Notes under the pieces: generated by a model | Database searches by the model: none | The model's input: only the letters and a program-made list of their open reading frames with translations | What the model was told of the DNA's origin: nothing | IMG/VR virus record: IMGVR_UViG_3300009000_000014 | Coordinates: 1-37,679 of that record | Source: a virus | Direction: 5' to 3' (one strand) | Length of the DNA stretch: 37,679 bases | In this document: positions 1 to 37,679 of the stretch, one piece after another | How positions within the stretch are numbered: position 1 is the stretch's first letter | Layout of the letters: the number at the start of each line of letters is the position of its first letter | Made by a program: the position numbers and the translations under genes

Positions 1-804
1 GTAGCACAAAACTCATTCAACGAAATGGCATTCTCGATCGAGAAAGTTGCAGTAACTGCAGTTAGCCGTGCGTTGAAAGCAGAATACACCATGGAACTTG
101 CTCAAGATCTTAAAGCAATCCATGGCTTGGACGCTGAAACTGAACTTAGCAACATTCTTTCTTCGGAAATTCTTGCTGAGATCAACCGTGAAGTTGTTCG
201 CACGATCAACTACTCAGCTGTTGCTGGTGCTCAGAAAAACACTGCAACCGCTGGTACTTTCAACCTTGACACCGATTCAAACGGTCGTTGGGCAGTTGAA
301 AAGTTCAAAGGTCTTATGTTCCAAATCGAGCGTGACGCCAACGAAATTGCGAAAGCAACACGTCGTGGTAAAGGTAACGTCATGATCACTTCATCTGATG
401 TGGCTTCTGCCCTTCAAATGGCTGGTGTTCTTGATTACACCCCTGCTCTTACGAACAACCTTCAAGTAGATGACACAGGTAACACATTCGCTGGTGTACT
501 TAACGGTCGTATTAAAGTTTACATCGACCCATACTTCAGCGACACTGTAAACCAATATTACACGATCGGTTACAAAGGCACGAATGCTTTTGACGCTGGC
601 TTGTTCTATTGCCCATACGTGCCACTACAAATGGTTCGTGCAGTTGGTGAAAACACCTTCCAGCCAAAAATCGGCTTCAAAACTCGTTACGGTATGGTTG
701 CTAATCCTTTCGCAACTAACGATGGTAACGGTGTTGCTGCCCGTGTTGGTACTGGCGATGGTAACATCTACTACAGATTGGTTAAAGTTACCAACCTTAT
801 GTAA
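1..804 (+). CDS. 23: Major capsid protein gp23, C-terminal part
   Basis: The frame is open from the first base of the window, so the N-terminus lies upstream; the ATG at 25 is an internal methionine. The visible 267 residues match the C-terminal half of T4 gp23: the MAFSIEKVAVTAVSRALKAE stretch, then ELAQDLKAIHGLDAE, the FKGLMFQIERDANEIA helix, the FAGVLNGRIKVYID strand and the IGFKTRYGMVANPFA segment near the end. In this family the protein has an HK97-type fold, forms the hexamers of the head, and is cut near its N-terminus by the prohead protease gp21 during maturation. A strong terminator follows directly. Identity is close to certain; only the start is missing. Confidence 0.97.
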   Translation, partial: VAQNSFNEMAFSIEKVAVTAVSRALKAEYTMELAQDLKAIHGLDAETELSNILSSEILAEINREVVRTINYSAVAGAQKNTATAGTFNLDTDSNGRWAVEKFKGLMFQIERDANEIAKATRRGKGNVMITSSDVASALQMAGVLDYTPALTNNLQVDDTGNTFAGVLNGRIKVYIDPYFSDTVNQYYTIGYKGTNAFDAGLFYCPYVPLQMVRAVGENTFQPKIGFKTRYGMVANPFATNDGNGVAARVGTGDGNIYYRLVKVTNLM

Positions 805-22991: not shown

Positions 22992-24425
22992 ATGATCTTT
23001 TACACAAACACCTATTCCAGAGGAAACTTCGTCTACATTCGTGGCTATCACGATGGCAAACGATTCATGGACAAGATTCCGTATAAGCCAACATTTTTTG
23101 TCCCAGCGAAACAACAAACTCAATACAAAACGATTCATGGACAGTATGTCGAGCCGATAGAGCAGGGTTCGATACGTGAGGCACGTGACTTTCTTACTAA
23201 GTATGAAGACGTTGATGGATTCACCATCTATGGCTCTAACTCCTTCGCATATACTTGTCTTAATGAACAGCATGGCAAAGATTATGATGTAGACCTAATT
23301 CGTATCGCAAATATCGATATTGAGGTTGCATCTGAAGATGGCTTTCCAGATCCAGATCTTGCCAATCAAGAGATCACGGCAATTACTGTAAAATATAAAG
23401 ACACCTTCTTCGTTCTTGGTACAGGTGACTTCGAAACGGATCGTAATGACGTAAAGTATCTGAAGTGTAGCAATGAGAAAATTCTAATTCAGAACTTTAT
23501 CAACATGTGGGAGAAAATGGATGTTGACATTATTACTGGTTGGAACGTTCAGTTTTTTGATATTCCTTATCTGTGGAATCGTATTACTCGACTCTTTGAT
23601 GAGAAGGCAGCTTCCAAACTTTCGCCGTATGGCTTCGCTTATTCAAGAAGTGTTCGAATGATGAATAGAGAACACACCATCGTCGATCTTCCAGGATTGT
23701 GTGTTCTTGACTATCTCGAACTTTACAAAAAATTCACATACAGCAATCAGGAATCATATCGCCTTGATCACATAGCAACAGTTGAACTTGGTGAAAAGAA
23801 AATTGATTACTCTGAATATTCTAGCCTTCATCAACTTTATAAACTTGACTATCAAAAGTTTATAGAGTATAATATCAAAGACGTTGAACTTGTGGCGAAA
23901 ATTGAAGACAAGATGAAGTTGATTGAGATGGCTCTGGCTTTAGCATATGATGCGAAAGTAAATTATGATGATGTGTTCACGCAGGTGCGCATGTGGGATG
24001 TGCTCATTCACAATTATTTGATTGAGCGTAATATCGTCGTGCCACCCAAAACTGACAAGAGAAAAGATGCACAATATGCTGGCGCATATGTCAAAGATCC
24101 GCTCGTTGGTCAACATAACTGGGTCATGTCCTTTGACCTTAACAGTCTGTATCCGCATTTGATTATGCAATATAATATTTCTCCCGACACGTTCCTCAGC
24201 GGCGAGTATCAACAAGTTTCAATTGATAAAATTATTGAGCGTGATATTGAAACTCCAGATGATAAGGTGTTGTCTGCGAGTGGATATTATTTCTCACGTG
24301 ACAGTCAAGGATTTCTTCCTGCCATGATGGAGATGATGTATAATGAGCGTGTGATCTACAAAAAGAAAATGCTTGAAGCCGAATCCGAACTTGAAGAAGT
24401 GAATAGGAAACTTAAAGAGTTATGA
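22992..24425 (+). CDS. 43A: DNA polymerase gp43, N-terminal half (gp43A: exonuclease, palm start)
   Basis: This 477-residue family B polymerase part carries the 3'-5' exonuclease and the first polymerase motif. Exo I is NIDIEVASEDG near residue 107, Exo II GWNVQFFDIPYLWNR near 181-195, Exo III YNIKDVEL near 294-301; motif A is SFDLNSLYPHLIMQY near 379-393. It ends in the first fingers helix (MYNERVIYKKKMLEAESELE followed by EVNRKLKEL), so motifs B and C are missing and sit in the next gene. The stop TGA overlaps the ATG of gp43B. Together the two halves have about 840 residues, like an intact marine gp43. A sequencing indel is the alternative explanation. Confidence 0.93.
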   Translation: MIFYTNTYSRGNFVYIRGYHDGKRFMDKIPYKPTFFVPAKQQTQYKTIHGQYVEPIEQGSIREARDFLTKYEDVDGFTIYGSNSFAYTCLNEQHGKDYDVDLIRIANIDIEVASEDGFPDPDLANQEITAITVKYKDTFFVLGTGDFETDRNDVKYLKCSNEKILIQNFINMWEKMDVDIITGWNVQFFDIPYLWNRITRLFDEKAASKLSPYGFAYSRSVRMMNREHTIVDLPGLCVLDYLELYKKFTYSNQESYRLDHIATVELGEKKIDYSEYSSLHQLYKLDYQKFIEYNIKDVELVAKIEDKMKLIEMALALAYDAKVNYDDVFTQVRMWDVLIHNYLIERNIVVPPKTDKRKDAQYAGAYVKDPLVGQHNWVMSFDLNSLYPHLIMQYNISPDTFLSGEYQQVSIDKIIERDIETPDDKVLSASGYYFSRDSQGFLPAMMEMMYNERVIYKKKMLEAESELEEVNRKLKEL

Positions 24426-25513
24426 ACAAGAACGAACTCCTACAGCGCAAAGCACAGCTGGAGAAGGATATCTCCAAATACAAAAACCTTCAGCTTGCCA
24501 AAAAGGTTCAGCTAAACTCAGCTTATGGCGCACTTGGTAACAAATACTTTCGCTTCTTTGATATTCGCCAAGCGGAATCTATCACGCTATCTGGTCAGCT
24601 TTCTATCAAATGGATTGAACGTCGTGTGAATGAATATATGAACAAACTACTTGAAACCGATGACGTTGATTATGTTATTGCTTCAGATACAGACAGTTTG
24701 TATATTCGTTTTGACGAACTTGTCAATAAGATATTCCCTAATGGTGCAAGCGACGATGAGATTGTTAATTGGCTTGACAAAGCAGCAAAGCAAAAGATCG
24801 AGCCATTCATTGATAAGAAATATCAAGAACTCGCAAACCTGATGAATGCTTATGATCAGAAAATGTTTATGAAGCGTGAGGCGATCGCAAACAAAGGTAT
24901 CTGGACTGCCAAGAAGCGTTACATTCTCAATGTATATGATAATGAAGGTGTGAGATATTCTGAACCAAAACTGAAGATGATGGGTATTGAAGCGGTTAAG
25001 TCGTCAACTCCAGCATCTTGTCGTGATAGCATTAAGAAAGCACTTGGCATTATCATGAATGAAGATGAGACTGCGGTGCAAAAATACATATCAAACTTTC
25101 GTAAAGAGTTTAGTAAACTGCCATTTGAAGATGTTGCCTTTCCTAGATCGGTATCAGATTTGTCCAGCTATCAAACTCGAAGTAAAGACTTTGAACTGAA
25201 AAAGGGAACTCCTATTCATGTTCGTGGAAGTCTGGTCTATAATCATCTTCTCAAAGAATACAATCTCACCAAACAGTATGAAACCATCAAGGATGGCGAA
25301 AAGATTAAGTTTTGTTATTTGAAAATACCTAATCCGACTCGCCAAAATATTATATCTATTGTGACAACTCTCCCGAAGGAATTTCAGCTTGATAAATATA
25401 TCGACTATGACCTTCAGTTTGACAAGGCATTCCTTGAGCCACTCAGAATTATTTTGGAGAGTATTGGCTGGTCATCAGAACATAAACAAACATTAGAGGA
25501 CTTTTTCGGATGA
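24422..25513 (+). CDS. 43B: DNA polymerase gp43, C-terminal half (gp43B: fingers, palm, thumb)
   Basis: The 363-residue product begins with a helical stretch NELLQRKAQLEKDISKYKNL and continues with motif B, LAKKVQLNSAYGALGNKYF, near residues 25-43, the ITLSGQLSIKWIERR helix, motif C ASDTDSLYIRF near 86-96 carrying the catalytic aspartates, and the thumb. The C-terminus LEDFFG resembles the clamp-binding tail of T4 gp43. The start ATG overlaps the gp43A stop by four bases in the -1 frame, so it is translationally coupled. The halves should associate through the paired fingers helices, as described for the split gp43 of some Aeromonas T4-like phages. Confidence 0.93.
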   Translation: MNKNELLQRKAQLEKDISKYKNLQLAKKVQLNSAYGALGNKYFRFFDIRQAESITLSGQLSIKWIERRVNEYMNKLLETDDVDYVIASDTDSLYIRFDELVNKIFPNGASDDEIVNWLDKAAKQKIEPFIDKKYQELANLMNAYDQKMFMKREAIANKGIWTAKKRYILNVYDNEGVRYSEPKLKMMGIEAVKSSTPASCRDSIKKALGIIMNEDETAVQKYISNFRKEFSKLPFEDVAFPRSVSDLSSYQTRSKDFELKKGTPIHVRGSLVYNHLLKEYNLTKQYETIKDGEKIKFCYLKIPNPTRQNIISIVTTLPKEFQLDKYIDYDLQFDKAFLEPLRIILESIGWSSEHKQTLEDFFG

Positions 25514-32018: not shown

Positions 32019-32026
32019 TATAAATA
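32019..32026 (+). promoter_or_regulatory. Late promoter TATAAATA for the 32049-34075 genes
   Basis: An exact TATAAATA octamer follows the terminator and lies 23 bases before the ATG at 32049, with AAAGGAG between them. The predicted start near 32033 gives a short leader, as at 873. It marks the following genes as late and so probably virion- or packaging-related. Confidence 0.8.
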
Positions 32027-32048: not shown

Positions 32049-32852
32049 ATGATTAAGAGTTTTTCTGAGTACAATGATGATGTTCTAAAAGAGAGTATCG
32101 GTCAAGCTGGATTGGATTATGAATTGAAAGTCCACTCAGCTATGAAAACTGCAAACATTCCAGGATTAAATGCTGGCGATAAGCCAGGAGCAGGATTCTC
32201 TAATGTTGGCGCTGGCGATATTGAAGCATCATATAACGGAAAGGCATTCAATATCGAAATCAAAGCCTCAGCTAAAGATCAGATGGGCGGCGGTTCTTTT
32301 CGCTATGATATGGCAACCAAAACTTTCACACCAGTTAAAGAACTCGATCCTGAAGATTTGGATCTATTGATGGCAGCTGCAAAGGAAAAGATTGACGATA
32401 TTGATAACTATATCAAAGCTGCAAGAAAACTCGATCCAGTTGAATACCATAAAAACATTAATGGCATTCCTTTAAAGATTTCAAAAGAGGGTAGAGAAGA
32501 ACTTAAGAAAAGAGGACTTCTTGCTAAAATCAATAAAAACGTAAAAACTCAAGCAAATTTTATTATCAAACATTACAATAAAAAGGGTGTTTTCTATATT
32601 AATGTTGGGGGTGCTGGTCTATTTTATATGGGTAAAAATCCATTAAAACTTCCAGTCCCAGAACTTAAAGGTGAGATTCAAGTTGAAATGCGTTTAGGGT
32701 TTTCTGGTGGCAAACTAAATTTCCCAACAGATCCACCAACAGATGCTCGTGCAGCTGGTCTTAGACTTCAAGGAAGATTGTTGACTAAAGGGAAATCACC
32801 GTATAGTTTAGATAACGTCGAAGACATTAAAAAATTATTTGGTGTAAAATGA
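32049..32852 (+). CDS. PD-(D/E)xK nuclease-like late protein with capsid-targeting-like leader
   Basis: The 267-residue protein has a helix with LDYELKVHSAMK (E25), then GAGDIEASYNGKAFNIEIKA, giving D57, E70 and K72: the D-x12-E-x-K layout of restriction-endonuclease-like folds. The rest has a basic helical middle (RKLDPVEYHKNINGIPLKIS) and a strand-rich end with GVFYINVGGAGLFYMG. Its first 15 residues, MIKSFSEYNDDVLKE, followed by S, recall the T4 internal-protein leader MKTYQEFIAE, which ends at an L/I-x-E site cut by gp21. It is the first gene after a late promoter. It may be packaged and act on DNA at entry or during packaging; both the nuclease call and the targeting are inference. Confidence 0.7.
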   Translation: MIKSFSEYNDDVLKESIGQAGLDYELKVHSAMKTANIPGLNAGDKPGAGFSNVGAGDIEASYNGKAFNIEIKASAKDQMGGGSFRYDMATKTFTPVKELDPEDLDLLMAAAKEKIDDIDNYIKAARKLDPVEYHKNINGIPLKISKEGREELKKRGLLAKINKNVKTQANFIIKHYNKKGVFYINVGGAGLFYMGKNPLKLPVPELKGEIQVEMRLGFSGGKLNFPTDPPTDARAAGLRLQGRLLTKGKSPYSLDNVEDIKKLFGVK

Positions 32853-34075
32853 AGAAATTTTCAGATGTTCTTTTAGAGAACAAAAACACACATATGGAAC
32901 ATTTAGAAGATTATGTACTCAATGGAGGAGTGAATGGAGCAAGACAAGCGATCAACTTTCTTAGGGGACTCAGGGATTCTCTTGCTGGTAGTTCTAGTAG
33001 TTCTATCAATGTTACTGTTAAATGGGATGGTGCTCCTGCTATATTCGCTGGTAACGACCCTAGAGACGGTAAGTTCTTCGTTGCCAAAAAAGGTATCTTC
33101 AATAAAAACCCGAAGGTTTATAAGACGCCAGAAGAGATTGATGCTGATACGAGTGGTGACTTGGCAACGAAACTTAAACAAGCATTGGAGTATCTCCCGA
33201 AACTTGGTATCAAAGGCGTGGTTCAAGGCGACTTTCTTTTTAGCAAAAAAGACTTAAAAATCAAGAAAATTGATGGTGTGCGTTATGTTACGTTTCATCC
33301 TAACACCATTATGTATGCTGTCCCTACAAATACACCGCTTGGCAAAAGAATACTGAAATCTAAATTCGGTATCGTATGGCACACAACATATACTGGCAAA
33401 GACTTCGAGTCTATGAAAGCATCGTTCGGTAAAAACATCGCATCAAATCTTGTATCTTCCCCTGACGTTTGGTCAGTAGATGCAATGTATAATGACGCTT
33501 CAGGGTCAGCAACATTTACGGCAGATGAAACTAAAGCACTAACTGCGATTCTATCAAATGCTGGAAAATTATTTAACAAAATAGATGCCAAAACTCTCAA
33601 CTCTATTTCTGCTAATGATGAGTTGTTAATTCGTATGAAAACATTTTTAAATACGAAAGTTCGTGAACAGGAAAAAATCACCAACGTTAAGAAAACTGTT
33701 CGTGAAATGATCGATTATTTCCATAACTATTATAAAGGCGAAGAGAGCAAACGTAAAACCGAAAAGGGAAAGTCTGCTGTACAGGATCGCAAAAAAGAAG
33801 TAATGAAGATTTTTACATCTGGCAATGCTAGATCTTTAGAAAATATCCTCACTCTTATGAATCTAATCGTCGATGCCAAACTAATGATTATTGATAAATT
33901 AAATAAATCGAAAAGCATTGACACTTTTCTGTTGACTGCCGATGGTATTCGTGCTACAGGACAGGAAGGGTTTGTTGCTATTGATAAGGGTGAAAATGCA
34001 GTTAAATTGGTAGATAGATTAGAATTCAGTTATGCTAACTTTAATCCAAATGTGATTAAGGGTTGGCAAAGATAG
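32849..34075 (+). CDS. Nucleotidyltransferase/ligase-like late protein (DUF6267-like)
   Basis: This 408-residue protein overlaps the previous stop (ATGA). Residues 54-85 read VTVKWDGAPAIFAG, then GKFFVAKKGIFNKNPKVY, like motif I (KxDG, K58) and the following strand of RNA/DNA ligases and capping enzymes. GVVQGDFLF near 136 resembles motif III, and EGFVAIDKGENAVKLVDR near 376-393 motifs IV/V. The order fits an AMP/GMP transferase fold. The N-terminus MKKFSDVLLE aligns residue by residue with the T4 capsid-targeting leader MKTYQEFIAE. I recall closely similar proteins, named DUF6267, in cyanophages. Lysine at motif I suggests activity, but no substrate is known. Confidence 0.72.
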   Translation: MKKFSDVLLENKNTHMEHLEDYVLNGGVNGARQAINFLRGLRDSLAGSSSSSINVTVKWDGAPAIFAGNDPRDGKFFVAKKGIFNKNPKVYKTPEEIDADTSGDLATKLKQALEYLPKLGIKGVVQGDFLFSKKDLKIKKIDGVRYVTFHPNTIMYAVPTNTPLGKRILKSKFGIVWHTTYTGKDFESMKASFGKNIASNLVSSPDVWSVDAMYNDASGSATFTADETKALTAILSNAGKLFNKIDAKTLNSISANDELLIRMKTFLNTKVREQEKITNVKKTVREMIDYFHNYYKGEESKRKTEKGKSAVQDRKKEVMKIFTSGNARSLENILTLMNLIVDAKLMIIDKLNKSKSIDTFLLTADGIRATGQEGFVAIDKGENAVKLVDRLEFSYANFNPNVIKGWQR

Positions 34076-34081
34076 TATTAT

Positions 34082-34089
34082 TATAAATA
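34082..34089 (+). promoter_or_regulatory. Late promoter TATAAATA before the 866-residue protein
   Basis: An exact TATAAATA octamer in the 96-base gap after the ligase-like gene. The transcript would start near 34096, giving a leader of about 75 bases, longer than at the other late genes. No terminator is seen between the upstream stop and this site, so read-through from 32019 is also likely. Confidence 0.78.
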
Positions 34090-34171: not shown

Positions 34172-36772
34172 ATGAAAAAGATAGTATTCACATTCGGGAG
34201 AATGAATCCCCCAACGATCGGTCATGAAAAGCTGGCGGATAAGATCAAAGCAGTAGCGAAACGTGAAAATGCTGACGCTCGTATCTATCTTTCTCATACG
34301 CAAAACGACAAAAAAGATCCCCTCCCATATTCCGATAAGATTCGATTTGCTCAAAAAGCATTTGGAATCGCACATAAATCAAACGCAAAACAGATCTTTC
34401 AAATTCTTCCTGAACTAGAAAAAGATGGATATACCGAAATCATTATGGTTGTCGGTTCAGATCGTGCGGTTGAATTCAAGAATACTTTGAACAAATATAA
34501 TGGTAAAGAATACAACTTCGACAAAATCAGAATCGTTTCCGCAGGGCAACGTGACCCTGACGCTGAAGGAGTTGAAGGGATGTCAGGTACGAAACTGAGA
34601 GGTTTAGCTATGAGTGGCGACGAAAAAACATTTAAGAGTGGTTTAGCGTCTAAACTTTCTGATGCAGATAAAACGAAGATCTACAATATGCTCAGAAAAA
34701 ATCTAAAAGAAGAATTTGATGCTGATGAGTTTTTAAATGATGACAGAGATTACGAAGAAGAAATTTTAGATTACATTCTAACAAGCGATGAAGACCACAG
34801 CGAGTTGATTGGATTTCTCGATGTAGATGAAGCTGTGATGACTGTTCAACAAAGACTTGCTCGTAAAAGAATGATGAAGCGTATTGCTCATAAGATTCAA
34901 CGTGGCAAAAGGATTCGTGCCAAGCGCATGGCTGATTCTGAGCGTTTGATCAAGAGATCAAGAAAGGCAGCAAAATCTGTTCTTCGCAAAAAGTTTGCTG
35001 GTAAATTAGGACAAGAATATAAAGGGCTTTCATTATCACAAAAAGTTGCCGTTGATAAAATGGTAGATAAGAAAGCAACCCCAGCCAGAATCGAGAAACT
35101 TGCCAGAAAATTATTACCAAAGGTGAGAAAGGCTGAGATCGAAAGAGTCAAAAAAGCCAGAACATCTAAGAATGAAGAATTTATTTTAGAAAGACAAGAT
35201 CCAGAGATTAAAGATCGTGAGGGCACACAGCCAGCAAAGTATCATTCTGGTCTTAAGAAATCAACTAAAGTTGCAAGAGATCGTCAATTTAAGAAAGGTG
35301 CTGAAAAGCATCATGATGATCCATCTGCATATCCTGATAAACATGCTGGAGACACGGGAGCAAAAACCAAAATGAGCAAACATACGAAGAAATATCGTGA
35401 TATGTTTGGCGAAGCTCGTAGAGGTAGAAAATCGGCAGAAGAAGCTGAGAATATCTTGATGGGCTTGCGAAAAGCAGTATCACTCAAAGGGAAAGACATT
35501 CAGTTTGACAATGGTAAGAAATCCAAAGTCGACGATGTCACAGCAAGAAAAGCATTAGCAATTTATGATAATCTTCGCACCTCGATTGAGAAGGGTGTGT
35601 TCATGAAGAAGTTATCTGGTTCTCCTGAATCATTTGCAGCAGCATTAAAAGATCCTAATCCTGGAAAACCTGCAGCAAAAAGAGGAATTTCCTTAGGAGG
35701 CAAATTCGGAAAAAAGGCTAACGAGGGTGCTGTAGATACGGCGAAAGCATCCATCGAAAGAGAAAAGAAACAGGACAAGGCGAAATTTGACCGTATAATG
35801 GATCGTGCTAGACTCGCCGACACCAGAGCAAAAAATAGGGAGGAATCTGTAAATTTTCCTCTGACCGAATCTGCTGATGCGGCATTAAAAAAGAAAGCAG
35901 ATAAATCTGGAATTCCTGTAGGAATTCTTAAACAAGTTTATAATCGTGGTATGGCAGCATGGCGCACAGGGCATCGTCCTGGAGCCACCCAACAACAATG
36001 GGCGTTTGCCAGAGTAAATTCTTTCATTACTGGTGGTAAAACTAGAACTACAGCTGACGCCGATTTATGGAAAAAAGCTAAAGGAAGAAAAGAAGAACTT
36101 GGTGAAGAAGGCGGTGCTGGGGAGTGGGGAACTGATGCTCTTACGAAAAAATACAAGAGCGACACTCCTGGACAAAAGGAAGACTTATTGTTTAGCACAG
36201 AAAACTTATCATCTTTAAAAACATTTTTCTTAAAGATGAAGTTAAAACCAAAAATAGAAATGGCGGTTCGCCTGTTCTTAAAGCAAAAAGAACAAAACCC
36301 TAAAATTGACGACCATCAATTAGTATTAAGAGTTGTTCAAGATACAGGGCTACCAATTAGAATTGGTGCAACAGAAATTAAGAAAGCATTGAAAAAACTC
36401 GTTGATACAAACGCTATACCAAAAAGCATGTATCAAGAACAAGCGTTAGATGAAGCCTGTTGCGATGATTGCGAAAACTATTTCGATCATCAAATTACTG
36501 AATCTGAATATCAAGGCAGAAAAGTAAAACTAAATGACCCTTTCCGTGCACCTGCTGGTGACAAGAAAAAGTTTTATGTTTATGTGAAAAACGAAAAGGG
36601 CAATGTAATCAAGTTAGGATTCGGTGATCCTAATATGGAAATTAAACGAGACGATCCTGCAAGAAGGAAAAGTTTCAGAGCCAGACACAACTGCGATAAT
36701 CCTGGACCAAAATACAAAGCCAGATATTGGAGTTGCTATCAATGGCGTGCTGGCGCAAAGGTTGATAACTAA
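34172..36772 (+). CDS. Mosaic late protein: NMN adenylyltransferase-like domain fused to basic and structural modules
   Basis: Residues 1-160 resemble cytidylyl/adenylyltransferases: FTFGRMNPPTIGHEKLADKI (GxxxPxxxGH) and MSGTKLRGLA (the ISSTKIR-like motif). Then come an acidic stretch (about 180-220), a long basic helical region with ARKRMMKRIAHKIQRGKRIR (about 222-335), a TQPAKYHSGLKKSTKVARDR module (about 345-410), a DUF5872-like domain with QVYNRGMAAWRTGHRPGATQ (about 570-630), and a C-terminal module with DDPARRKSFRARHNCDNPGP and RYWSCYQW. The motifs FILER, NFPLTES, LDEA and ITES between modules look like L/I-x-E prohead-protease sites. A polyprotein-like head or core protein that is cut during maturation is possible; an NAD-related enzyme alone would not need this size. 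Confidence 0.75.
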   Translation: MKKIVFTFGRMNPPTIGHEKLADKIKAVAKRENADARIYLSHTQNDKKDPLPYSDKIRFAQKAFGIAHKSNAKQIFQILPELEKDGYTEIIMVVGSDRAVEFKNTLNKYNGKEYNFDKIRIVSAGQRDPDAEGVEGMSGTKLRGLAMSGDEKTFKSGLASKLSDADKTKIYNMLRKNLKEEFDADEFLNDDRDYEEEILDYILTSDEDHSELIGFLDVDEAVMTVQQRLARKRMMKRIAHKIQRGKRIRAKRMADSERLIKRSRKAAKSVLRKKFAGKLGQEYKGLSLSQKVAVDKMVDKKATPARIEKLARKLLPKVRKAEIERVKKARTSKNEEFILERQDPEIKDREGTQPAKYHSGLKKSTKVARDRQFKKGAEKHHDDPSAYPDKHAGDTGAKTKMSKHTKKYRDMFGEARRGRKSAEEAENILMGLRKAVSLKGKDIQFDNGKKSKVDDVTARKALAIYDNLRTSIEKGVFMKKLSGSPESFAAALKDPNPGKPAAKRGISLGGKFGKKANEGAVDTAKASIEREKKQDKAKFDRIMDRARLADTRAKNREESVNFPLTESADAALKKKADKSGIPVGILKQVYNRGMAAWRTGHRPGATQQQWAFARVNSFITGGKTRTTADADLWKKAKGRKEELGEEGGAGEWGTDALTKKYKSDTPGQKEDLLFSTENLSSLKTFFLKMKLKPKIEMAVRLFLKQKEQNPKIDDHQLVLRVVQDTGLPIRIGATEIKKALKKLVDTNAIPKSMYQEQALDEACCDDCENYFDHQITESEYQGRKVKLNDPFRAPAGDKKKFYVYVKNEKGNVIKLGFGDPNMEIKRDDPARRKSFRARHNCDNPGPKYKARYWSCYQWRAGAKVDN

Positions 36773-36783
36773 GGAGAAATAAA

Positions 36784-37679
36784 ATGTCATTAGAGAAAGC
36801 AATTAGAGATATGCTTGCGCCAAAACAAATCGTTGAGGCGGTAGACCCTGACGATAAGGGAGAATACGATAACGAAGGTGAAATGGCGAAAACGCAACTT
36901 CAAACTATGATTGATGCGGCTGAGCAACTTCGTGGTATGTTAAAAGACGAAGAAAATATGCCCGAGTGGGTTCAAAATAAAATTACGAAAGCAGTAGATT
37001 ATATCGACTCTGCTCGTGATTATATGAAATCAAAGGGCGATGACGGTAAAGCACCTGTCGGCGAAGAAGTCGAAGAATCTCTTGATGAAGAATCAGACCT
37101 TGAAGAAGGAACATGGGCACTACCAGAAACTCCTAAGTCAAAAGCTGCATTAAAAGCATTAATGAAAAAACCAATTAAACTTGGAAAAAATGGCGACGAT
37201 GCTTCAAAAAAACTTTACAGCCTAGTTGGAGACGACGAAGTATTTGACGATCTCTTTGTAGCTGGTAAAAAGAATCCAAACGGCGACGCACGTGATGTTG
37301 TCAAAAAACACGCAAAGCGTTTGGGCTTAAAGTTTGAAGAATTAGAATTAGAAGAAATGGAAGAGATTGTAGAGGCTGTCATGGAAGAAGATAAAGAAAT
37401 TTTAGCGGCATTGGATGATAATGCAATTTCCTTAGACGATGTTGTCAGATCAATTGTTTTTGAAAAGAAACTCGACAAAGTTGATCCTAAAGCAGTTAAG
37501 AAAGACTTTAAAGATCGCAAAGACAAAGACATTGATAACGATGGCGATGTAGATGATTCCGATGAGTATCTGCACAAGCGTCGTCAGGCAGTGTCAAAAG
37601 CCACTAAGAAAGAGAGCGATGACGAAAATGGTGATAAGGAAGATAACTCCGATACAGACGATAATGGCGTTCTCAAAAA
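36784..37679 (+). CDS. Acidic late protein with Ca-binding-like repeat, C-terminus beyond the window
   Basis: The frame starts at an ATG with AAGGAG at 36771-36776 and stays open to the last base, 298 codons. The first part has EYDNEGEMAKTQLQTMIDAA and NMPEWVQNKITKAVDYIDSA with RDYM, a helical domain that I recall as recurring in marine T4-like structural proteins. Near codons 85-110 are acidic repeats with EEVEESLDEESDLEEGTWAL. Then ALKALMKKPIKLGKNGDDAS, a long acidic helix, and DRKDKDIDNDGDVDDSDEYL, whose D-x-D-x-D-x-D spacing matches a dockerin or EF-hand calcium loop. It continues directly from the mosaic protein operon. A prohead core or scaffold role is plausible. Confidence 0.78.
   Translation, partial: MSLEKAIRDMLAPKQIVEAVDPDDKGEYDNEGEMAKTQLQTMIDAAEQLRGMLKDEENMPEWVQNKITKAVDYIDSARDYMKSKGDDGKAPVGEEVEESLDEESDLEEGTWALPETPKSKAALKALMKKPIKLGKNGDDASKKLYSLVGDDEVFDDLFVAGKKNPNGDARDVVKKHAKRLGLKFEELELEEMEEIVEAVMEEDKEILAALDDNAISLDDVVRSIVFEKKLDKVDPKAVKKDFKDRKDKDIDNDGDVDDSDEYLHKRRQAVSKATKKESDDENGDKEDNSDTDDNGVLK

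Follow-up and report, generated by a model that had tools for sequence, protein, structure and literature searches.

The internal proteins of phage T4, which are packaged and injected, are textbook knowledge. Here we describe a locus of a marine T4-like bacterial virus whose two products resemble them at their N-termini; it lies in the window, by which we mean the whole 37.7-kb stretch of DNA analysed (a fragment from IMG/VR, record IMGVR_UViG_3300009000_000014, positions 1 to 37,679), and it consists of two adjacent, translationally coupled genes that we name by their start positions, 32049 and 32849, the latter encoding a protein of the DUF6267 family. In T4, the internal proteins IPI, IPII and IPIII are injected and inhibit different GmrSD enzymes (PMC12373910, PMC9391042), gp21 cleaves after L/I-x-E (PMC9026906), and amber-suppressor work on IPIII has assigned positions 4 and 7 to targeting and positions 8 and 10 to processing (PMC9026906); D at position 10 prevents cleavage in T4 and leaves targeting intact. 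The overall explanation that we prefer, and regard as likely, is that the locus carries T4-type leaders and is a capsid-cargo locus at DUF6267. The mechanism itself is already known from T4. Judged by the literature searched (mainly outside subscription journals, and with no such leader described there for cyanophages or their relatives), the new elements are its occurrence in marine T4-like phages, its range there, the enzyme-like cargo and a hypervariable slot adjoining DUF6267.

The marine proteins share with the T4 internal proteins (i) a short leader with the same spacing, that is, aromatic residues at positions 4 and 7, I or L at position 8 and E at position 10, or else the extended form of IPI; (ii) the occurrence of this leader on otherwise unrelated proteins; and (iii) the L/I-x-E rule. 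They differ in what is carried: whereas the T4 cargo comprises small inhibitors encoded in two loci, the predicted marine cargo is larger and enzyme-like and includes at least 23 families by DUF6267 in Kyanoviridae-like phages. In this respect T4 Alt is closer, being a larger enzyme with a short packaging leader that ends in E10 (MELITELFDE) and a late promoter in front; however, it is an ADP-ribosyltransferase, its sequence is unrelated to those of the window proteins and its leader lacks aromatics. The putative cytidylyltransferase T4-GC190 of cyanophage S-SM1 has the leader MKKFSAFLNE, is encoded next to DUF6267 and has been detected in virions; the corresponding window protein (34172) is leaderless, the leader being found instead on DUF6267 and on the slot protein. 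Head propeptides are also known from the giant phages phiKZ and SPN3US, where they are cut by a gp21 homologue after x-E from proteins that are packaged and ejected (PMC5694885, PMC9026906); several of these propeptides exceed 100 residues, the phiKZ cut motif is S/A-x-E, and no widely shared short leader of this type is seen.

An earlier note on this DNA had drawn attention to the two N-termini, and both reading frames lie where it placed them: the slot protein (32049..32852, plus strand, 267 amino acids; phrog_26930, unknown function) starts with MIKSFSEYNDDVLKE (32049..32093), and the DUF6267 protein (32849..34075, plus strand, 408 amino acids; T4-GC 71) with MKKFSDVLLE (32849..32878). The start codons are credible, because AAGGAG precedes that of 32049, the start codon of 32849 shares bases with the stop codon of 32049 (ATGA), and homologues have both start positions in common with these genes. 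Both proteins begin with a stretch of 10-19 residues ending in L/I-x-E, here LLE at residues 8-10 of 32849 and LKE at residues 13-15 of 32049, as the note had said, with predicted cuts after E10 and E15. The leader of 32849 retains F4, L8 and E10, with V in place of the usual F or Y at position 7; it matches a wider leader pattern and not the strictest T4 pattern, and the case for it is made by its homologues, which carry the conserved form. In 32049 the aromatic pair is shifted by one (F5, Y8) and followed by a delayed L-x-E, an extended form like that of T4 IPI, which starts MKTFKEFTSTTTPVSTITE and also has a delayed site. The nearest relatives of 32049 have an extended leader too (MLTFTEHQNLQE), others have one of 10 residues (MKAFKEVLEE, MGIFKQYLTE, MHSFKEYLEE), and each of these leaders stands before the same [ST]-[IV] domain start. 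Since T4 IPI and Alt (the latter without aromatics at positions 4 and 7) are packaged and show both kinds of deviation, both window leaders are probably functional.

The conserved form is best seen in DUF6267. Nearly all of 79 metagenomic relatives start M-x-x-[FL]-x-x-[FY]-[LI]-x-E (for example MKTFKKFIAE and MKSFKTFLNE, to be compared with MKTYQEFIAE in T4 IPIII), and the leader E directly abuts the domain start x-K-N-[TLVS]-H-M. Among 51 distinct leaders, position 4 is F in 43 and L in 8, position 7 is F in 27 and Y in 22, position 8 is L in 35 and I in 16, and position 10 is E in all 51; E10 is also nearly invariant among 35 aligned homologues. The earlier note had matched the 32849 leader to T4 position by position, and this holds at positions 4, 8 and 10, but the acidic residue at position 6 (5 of 51) and K2 (19 of 51) are incidental; conversely, its pattern had left out position 7, which together with position 4 carries the aromatic pair across the family.

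The leader is not confined to DUF6267. The T4 pattern M..[FYW]..[FYW][LI].E was chosen before any counting and then looked for at gene starts in 99 related loci, all plausible start codons being taken in: it was found in 92 of 938 distinct genes (shuffles: mean 0.22, maximum 3) and in 23 of 385 families (shuffles: 0.32, maximum 3), and replacing E10 in the pattern by D, Q, K, A, S, N, T, G, L or V left 0 or 1 gene each. A wider pattern was present in 178 of 1257 genes; shuffles gave 9.4, and a control position further downstream gave 7. The slot directly upstream of DUF6267, filled by 32049 in the window, is occupied by 22 unrelated families, and in 12 of them some members bear the leader; the genomes of phage C48C1, Methylophilales phage Melnitz and G003 each encode several leader-bearing proteins. 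Recognisable domains in this cargo include a zeta-toxin/AAA_33 kinase, an HD_4 protein, a HAD phosphatase and a weak ParB_N match, most other leader-bearing families having no convincing match in Pfam.

Independent evidence comes from T4 itself, from the processing machinery and from virions. A position matrix trained on the marine DUF6267 leaders only and then run over whole genomes ranked IPII and IPIII 3rd and 4th, and IPI 7th, among the 275 genes of T4. In S-SM1 it gave one strong match, T4-GC190 (16.3 bits), followed by a 55-residue open reading frame at 10.9; T4-GC190 has been detected in S-SM1 virions by mass spectrometry (PMC3037559). In S-PM2, by contrast, DUF6267 starts without a leader and GC190 continues the DUF6267 sequence, so that it has no leader either, and it had not been detected in the virions of that phage (PMC3037559). 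Moreover, gp21 was found in 7 of 7 reference phage genomes tested and in 5 of 8 IMG/VR relatives, some of which are fragments, and at the T4 position of the gp23 cut site L-x-E is kept in 11 of 11 genomes. With the IPIII positions kept on at least 23 unrelated families, these results support the suggestion of the earlier note that the leader is of the T4 capsid-targeting type. Apart from this, the top T4 match of the matrix was gp61.1 (NC_000866, 18966-19130), a hypothetical protein of 54 amino acids starting MKTFKEFIKE (16.4 bits), which may be an unrecognised internal protein.

We propose that the leaders of 32849 (10 residues) and 32049 (15 residues) are propeptides of the T4 internal-protein type, and that such leaders serve capsid targeting is the part of which we are most confident. 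Besides the evidence given so far, the late promoter-like motif before 32049, the similar leaders on genes at the gp67/68 core position, the leaderless cyanophage DUF6267 proteins that start near the predicted cut and the synonymous codon variation at positions 8 and 10 count in its favour. The proteins would be expressed late, each would be bound through its leader to the prohead scaffold core, and gp21, following its conserved rule, would then cleave after L-x-E. The mature proteins would remain in the head with the DNA and, as in T4, be ejected into the host at infection. Both window proteins are likely to be packaged, and they are injected with somewhat lower, yet still fair, probability. 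The locus would be a cargo site at which DUF6267 is constant while the gene before it is exchanged between unrelated families, of which several are nuclease-like or are other enzymes. The likeliest time for the cargo to act would be the very onset of infection, its targets being host DNA, incoming DNA or host defences. By analogy with IPI, IPII and IPIII, a slot of this kind, with its turnover and its leaders, suggests early host takeover or counter-defence; that the two window proteins are themselves such enzymes we put forward tentatively, at slightly less than an even chance. The broader idea, that marine T4-like phages have a dedicated, fast-exchanged locus of injected effector enzymes, capsid-loaded by one short cleavable tag, may or may not hold, in our judgement, with equal probability, and the same balance applies to the composition of the kit that it implies, a constant ligase-like DUF6267 protein plus a swapped partner (nuclease-like, zeta-toxin-like kinase, HD, HAD and many unknowns).

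Several points weigh against this proposal. Packaging, cleavage and injection of 32049 and 32849 are predictions, and gp21 of this phage falls outside the window, which opens within gp23, the major capsid protein (C-terminal part, 1..804, plus strand; PF07068, E=1.3e-110), in a T4-like head-gene context that would place gp21 upstream. The leader of 32849 has V7 instead of F or Y and scores 8.5 bits against the DUF6267 matrix, compared with 12.6-23.1 for the training set, and the cut site of 32049 is shifted. DUF6267 relatives occur in 467 phage records, mostly of cyanophages, plus phages of Methylophilales, Pelagibacter and Stenotrophomonas, and many of the cyanophage proteins lack the leader, which makes packaging dispensable for the family. 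That GC190 went undetected in S-PM2 virions may reflect assay sensitivity. Finally, a depletion of internal L-x-E in mature cargo, which would speak for protection from gp21, is suggested for DUF6267 (2.02 vs 2.92) and for the nuclease-like family (0.62 vs 1.83), with no clear trend over the cargo families as a whole. As for the S-PM2 record itself (NC_006820, 103025-104804), DUF6267 and the cytidyltransferase are continuous, yet a frame change separates them, so that T4-GC190 of this phage includes half of DUF6267; in LN828717, unlike NC_006820, the two appear as a single match.

Among other explanations, the one that survives best is that the leaders send the proteins to the prohead core, where they serve assembly or stay in the capsid, rather than being effectors that are injected. 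A similar leader is borne, in several relatives, by the gene that separates portal from gp21, the place of the core proteins gp67/68 in T4, and DUF6267 is kept across hundreds of phages, unlike typical host-specific effectors. On the other hand, the turnover of 22 unrelated families in the slot before DUF6267 is unlike that of an assembly part, and in T4 the proteins with such a leader are injected and target restriction enzymes of the host (PMC12373910, PMC9391042); we consider this explanation unlikely, though deserving of some weight. Less probable still is that the family-wide signal is real but that both window leaders have decayed and the proteins are not packaged here. Its attraction lies in the scores on the DUF6267 matrix, on which 32849 reaches 8.5 bits and 32049 reaches 1.8 bits, where the training set never falls below 12.6. 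Even so, L-x-E is intact in both, Alt and IPI are packaged in spite of lacking aromatics or having a delayed site, and the nearest relatives of 32049 share its extended form.

A third explanation, that the N-terminus belongs to the function of each protein as an amphipathic start helix or a partner- or membrane-binding element and is unrelated to packaging, appears quite improbable to us. Short amphipathic N-termini are common, and leader cleavage in these phages is a prediction; nevertheless, the same leader stands on at least 23 unrelated families with E10 absolutely conserved, S-SM1 GC190, which bears it, is a virion protein, and some homologues do without it, their domain beginning right after the cut position (in P-HM2 and S-PM2, leaderless DUF6267 starts close to the expected mature N-terminus). 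That the leader is conserved as DNA, as start-codon context or as a crossover site for gene swapping, we dismiss as already contradicted: slot genes are exchanged among phages and shared start DNA could aid recombination, but at position 8 Leu/Ile is commonly encoded by seven variants that differ in the first and third base, position 10 is encoded by GAA in 36 leaders and GAG in 15, and second-base entropy at fixed residues is zero whereas third-base entropy is high, so that with the residue class fixed this synonymous variation shows selection to act on the protein.

What the two proteins of our proposed cargo locus may do is suggested by their motifs. The 32849 protein matches PF19782 (DUF6267) over residues 13-400 with 373.8 bits (cut-off 27; E=1.5e-111), and K58-x-D60-G61, E373-G374-x-V376 and K386 are invariant in 35 homologues. 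By these motifs DUF6267 is ligase-like, as the earlier note had called it, but ligase motif IV lacks its lysine (EGFVAID) and profiles lend the label no support. Homology to ligases, tried by hhalign against relatives of T4 Rnl2, was not supported (probability 0.3, an unrelated control scoring similarly), although both profiles are so shallow (Neff below 3) that a remote relation may have escaped; there was no ligase match among PDB sequences or in Pfam. In the 32049 protein E25 and E70-x-K72 are invariant and D57 nearly so, which resembles a PD-(D/E)xK core with an upstream acidic residue and makes the protein nuclease-like by motif, searches of Pfam, profiles and PDB sequences giving no match. 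A PADLOC search with both window proteins also gave none. When two slot families were compared by profile, the match was weak, covered the leader and little else, and brought out no common nuclease fold. Elsewhere, the slot protein of locus L103 (3829-4785, leader MLSFKSFLNE), which has a relative in L141, is hit by the PADLOC model of a type II restriction enzyme (E=6e-11), and a restriction-like nuclease of this type may be carried within the phage head. The slot protein of Stenotrophomonas phage DLP6 (L003, 11079-11996) resembles it by eye and has no leader.

Marine T4-like phages are far more abundant than T4, and the leader provides a sequence handle on what their heads carry, since any bearer can be predicted as capsid cargo. 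Dozens of families now labelled 'hypothetical', the widespread DUF6267 among them, become testable candidates for packaged and injected proteins, with the locus a likely hotspot for counter-defence or host-takeover functions. If the broader idea of a dedicated effector locus is true, a pre-made enzyme kit would act in the host ahead of any phage gene expression.

Upstream of 32049, 22 nucleotides before its start codon, lies a T4-type late promoter-like motif, TATAAATA (32019..32026, plus strand). Four copies occur in the window, all on the plus strand and 17-82 nucleotides before the open reading frames 898, 22411, 32049 and 34172, a count that is not significant for the window, since 20 of 100 shuffles reach 4 or more. 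The same motif precedes numerous genes for heads and tails in related genomes, and alt in T4. The copy at 34082..34089 (plus strand) stands before the gene for the cytidyltransferase-like multi-module protein (34172..36772, plus strand, 866 amino acids), the leaderless relative of T4-GC190. In phage C48C1 (OQ984149, 63553-64857) an upstream start of the cytidyltransferase gives MIKNFSQYLLEEEREVYFTFGRMNPPTIGH, with a leader, and the annotated start (63688, or 13688 in L002 numbering; MNPPTIGH) is probably too late. Elsewhere in the window, two overlapping open reading frames (22992-24425 and 24422-25513) appear by eye to be one DNA polymerase B in two parts, the second of which starts MNKNELLQRKAQLEKDISKYKNLQLAKKVQLNSAYGALGNK.

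Multi-module proteins are encoded at 34172-36772 and 36784-37677 in the window, at 3985-7071 in L081 and at 96556-98106 in G003, with modules of cytidyltransferase, DUF5824, phrog_7595-like and DNDGDVD type. For the two window proteins we do not claim a polyprotein of modules joined by L-x-E linkers, because the L-x-E density of 34172 is that of chance (7 vs 6.8 expected). In other phages some of the modules occur as proteins of their own, with a leader, and one recurs in the gene between portal and gp21 of G003. The L081 protein, one of a few relatives to which the polyprotein idea may still apply, has 18 L-x-E, vs 6.5 expected, and is possibly cut up by gp21.
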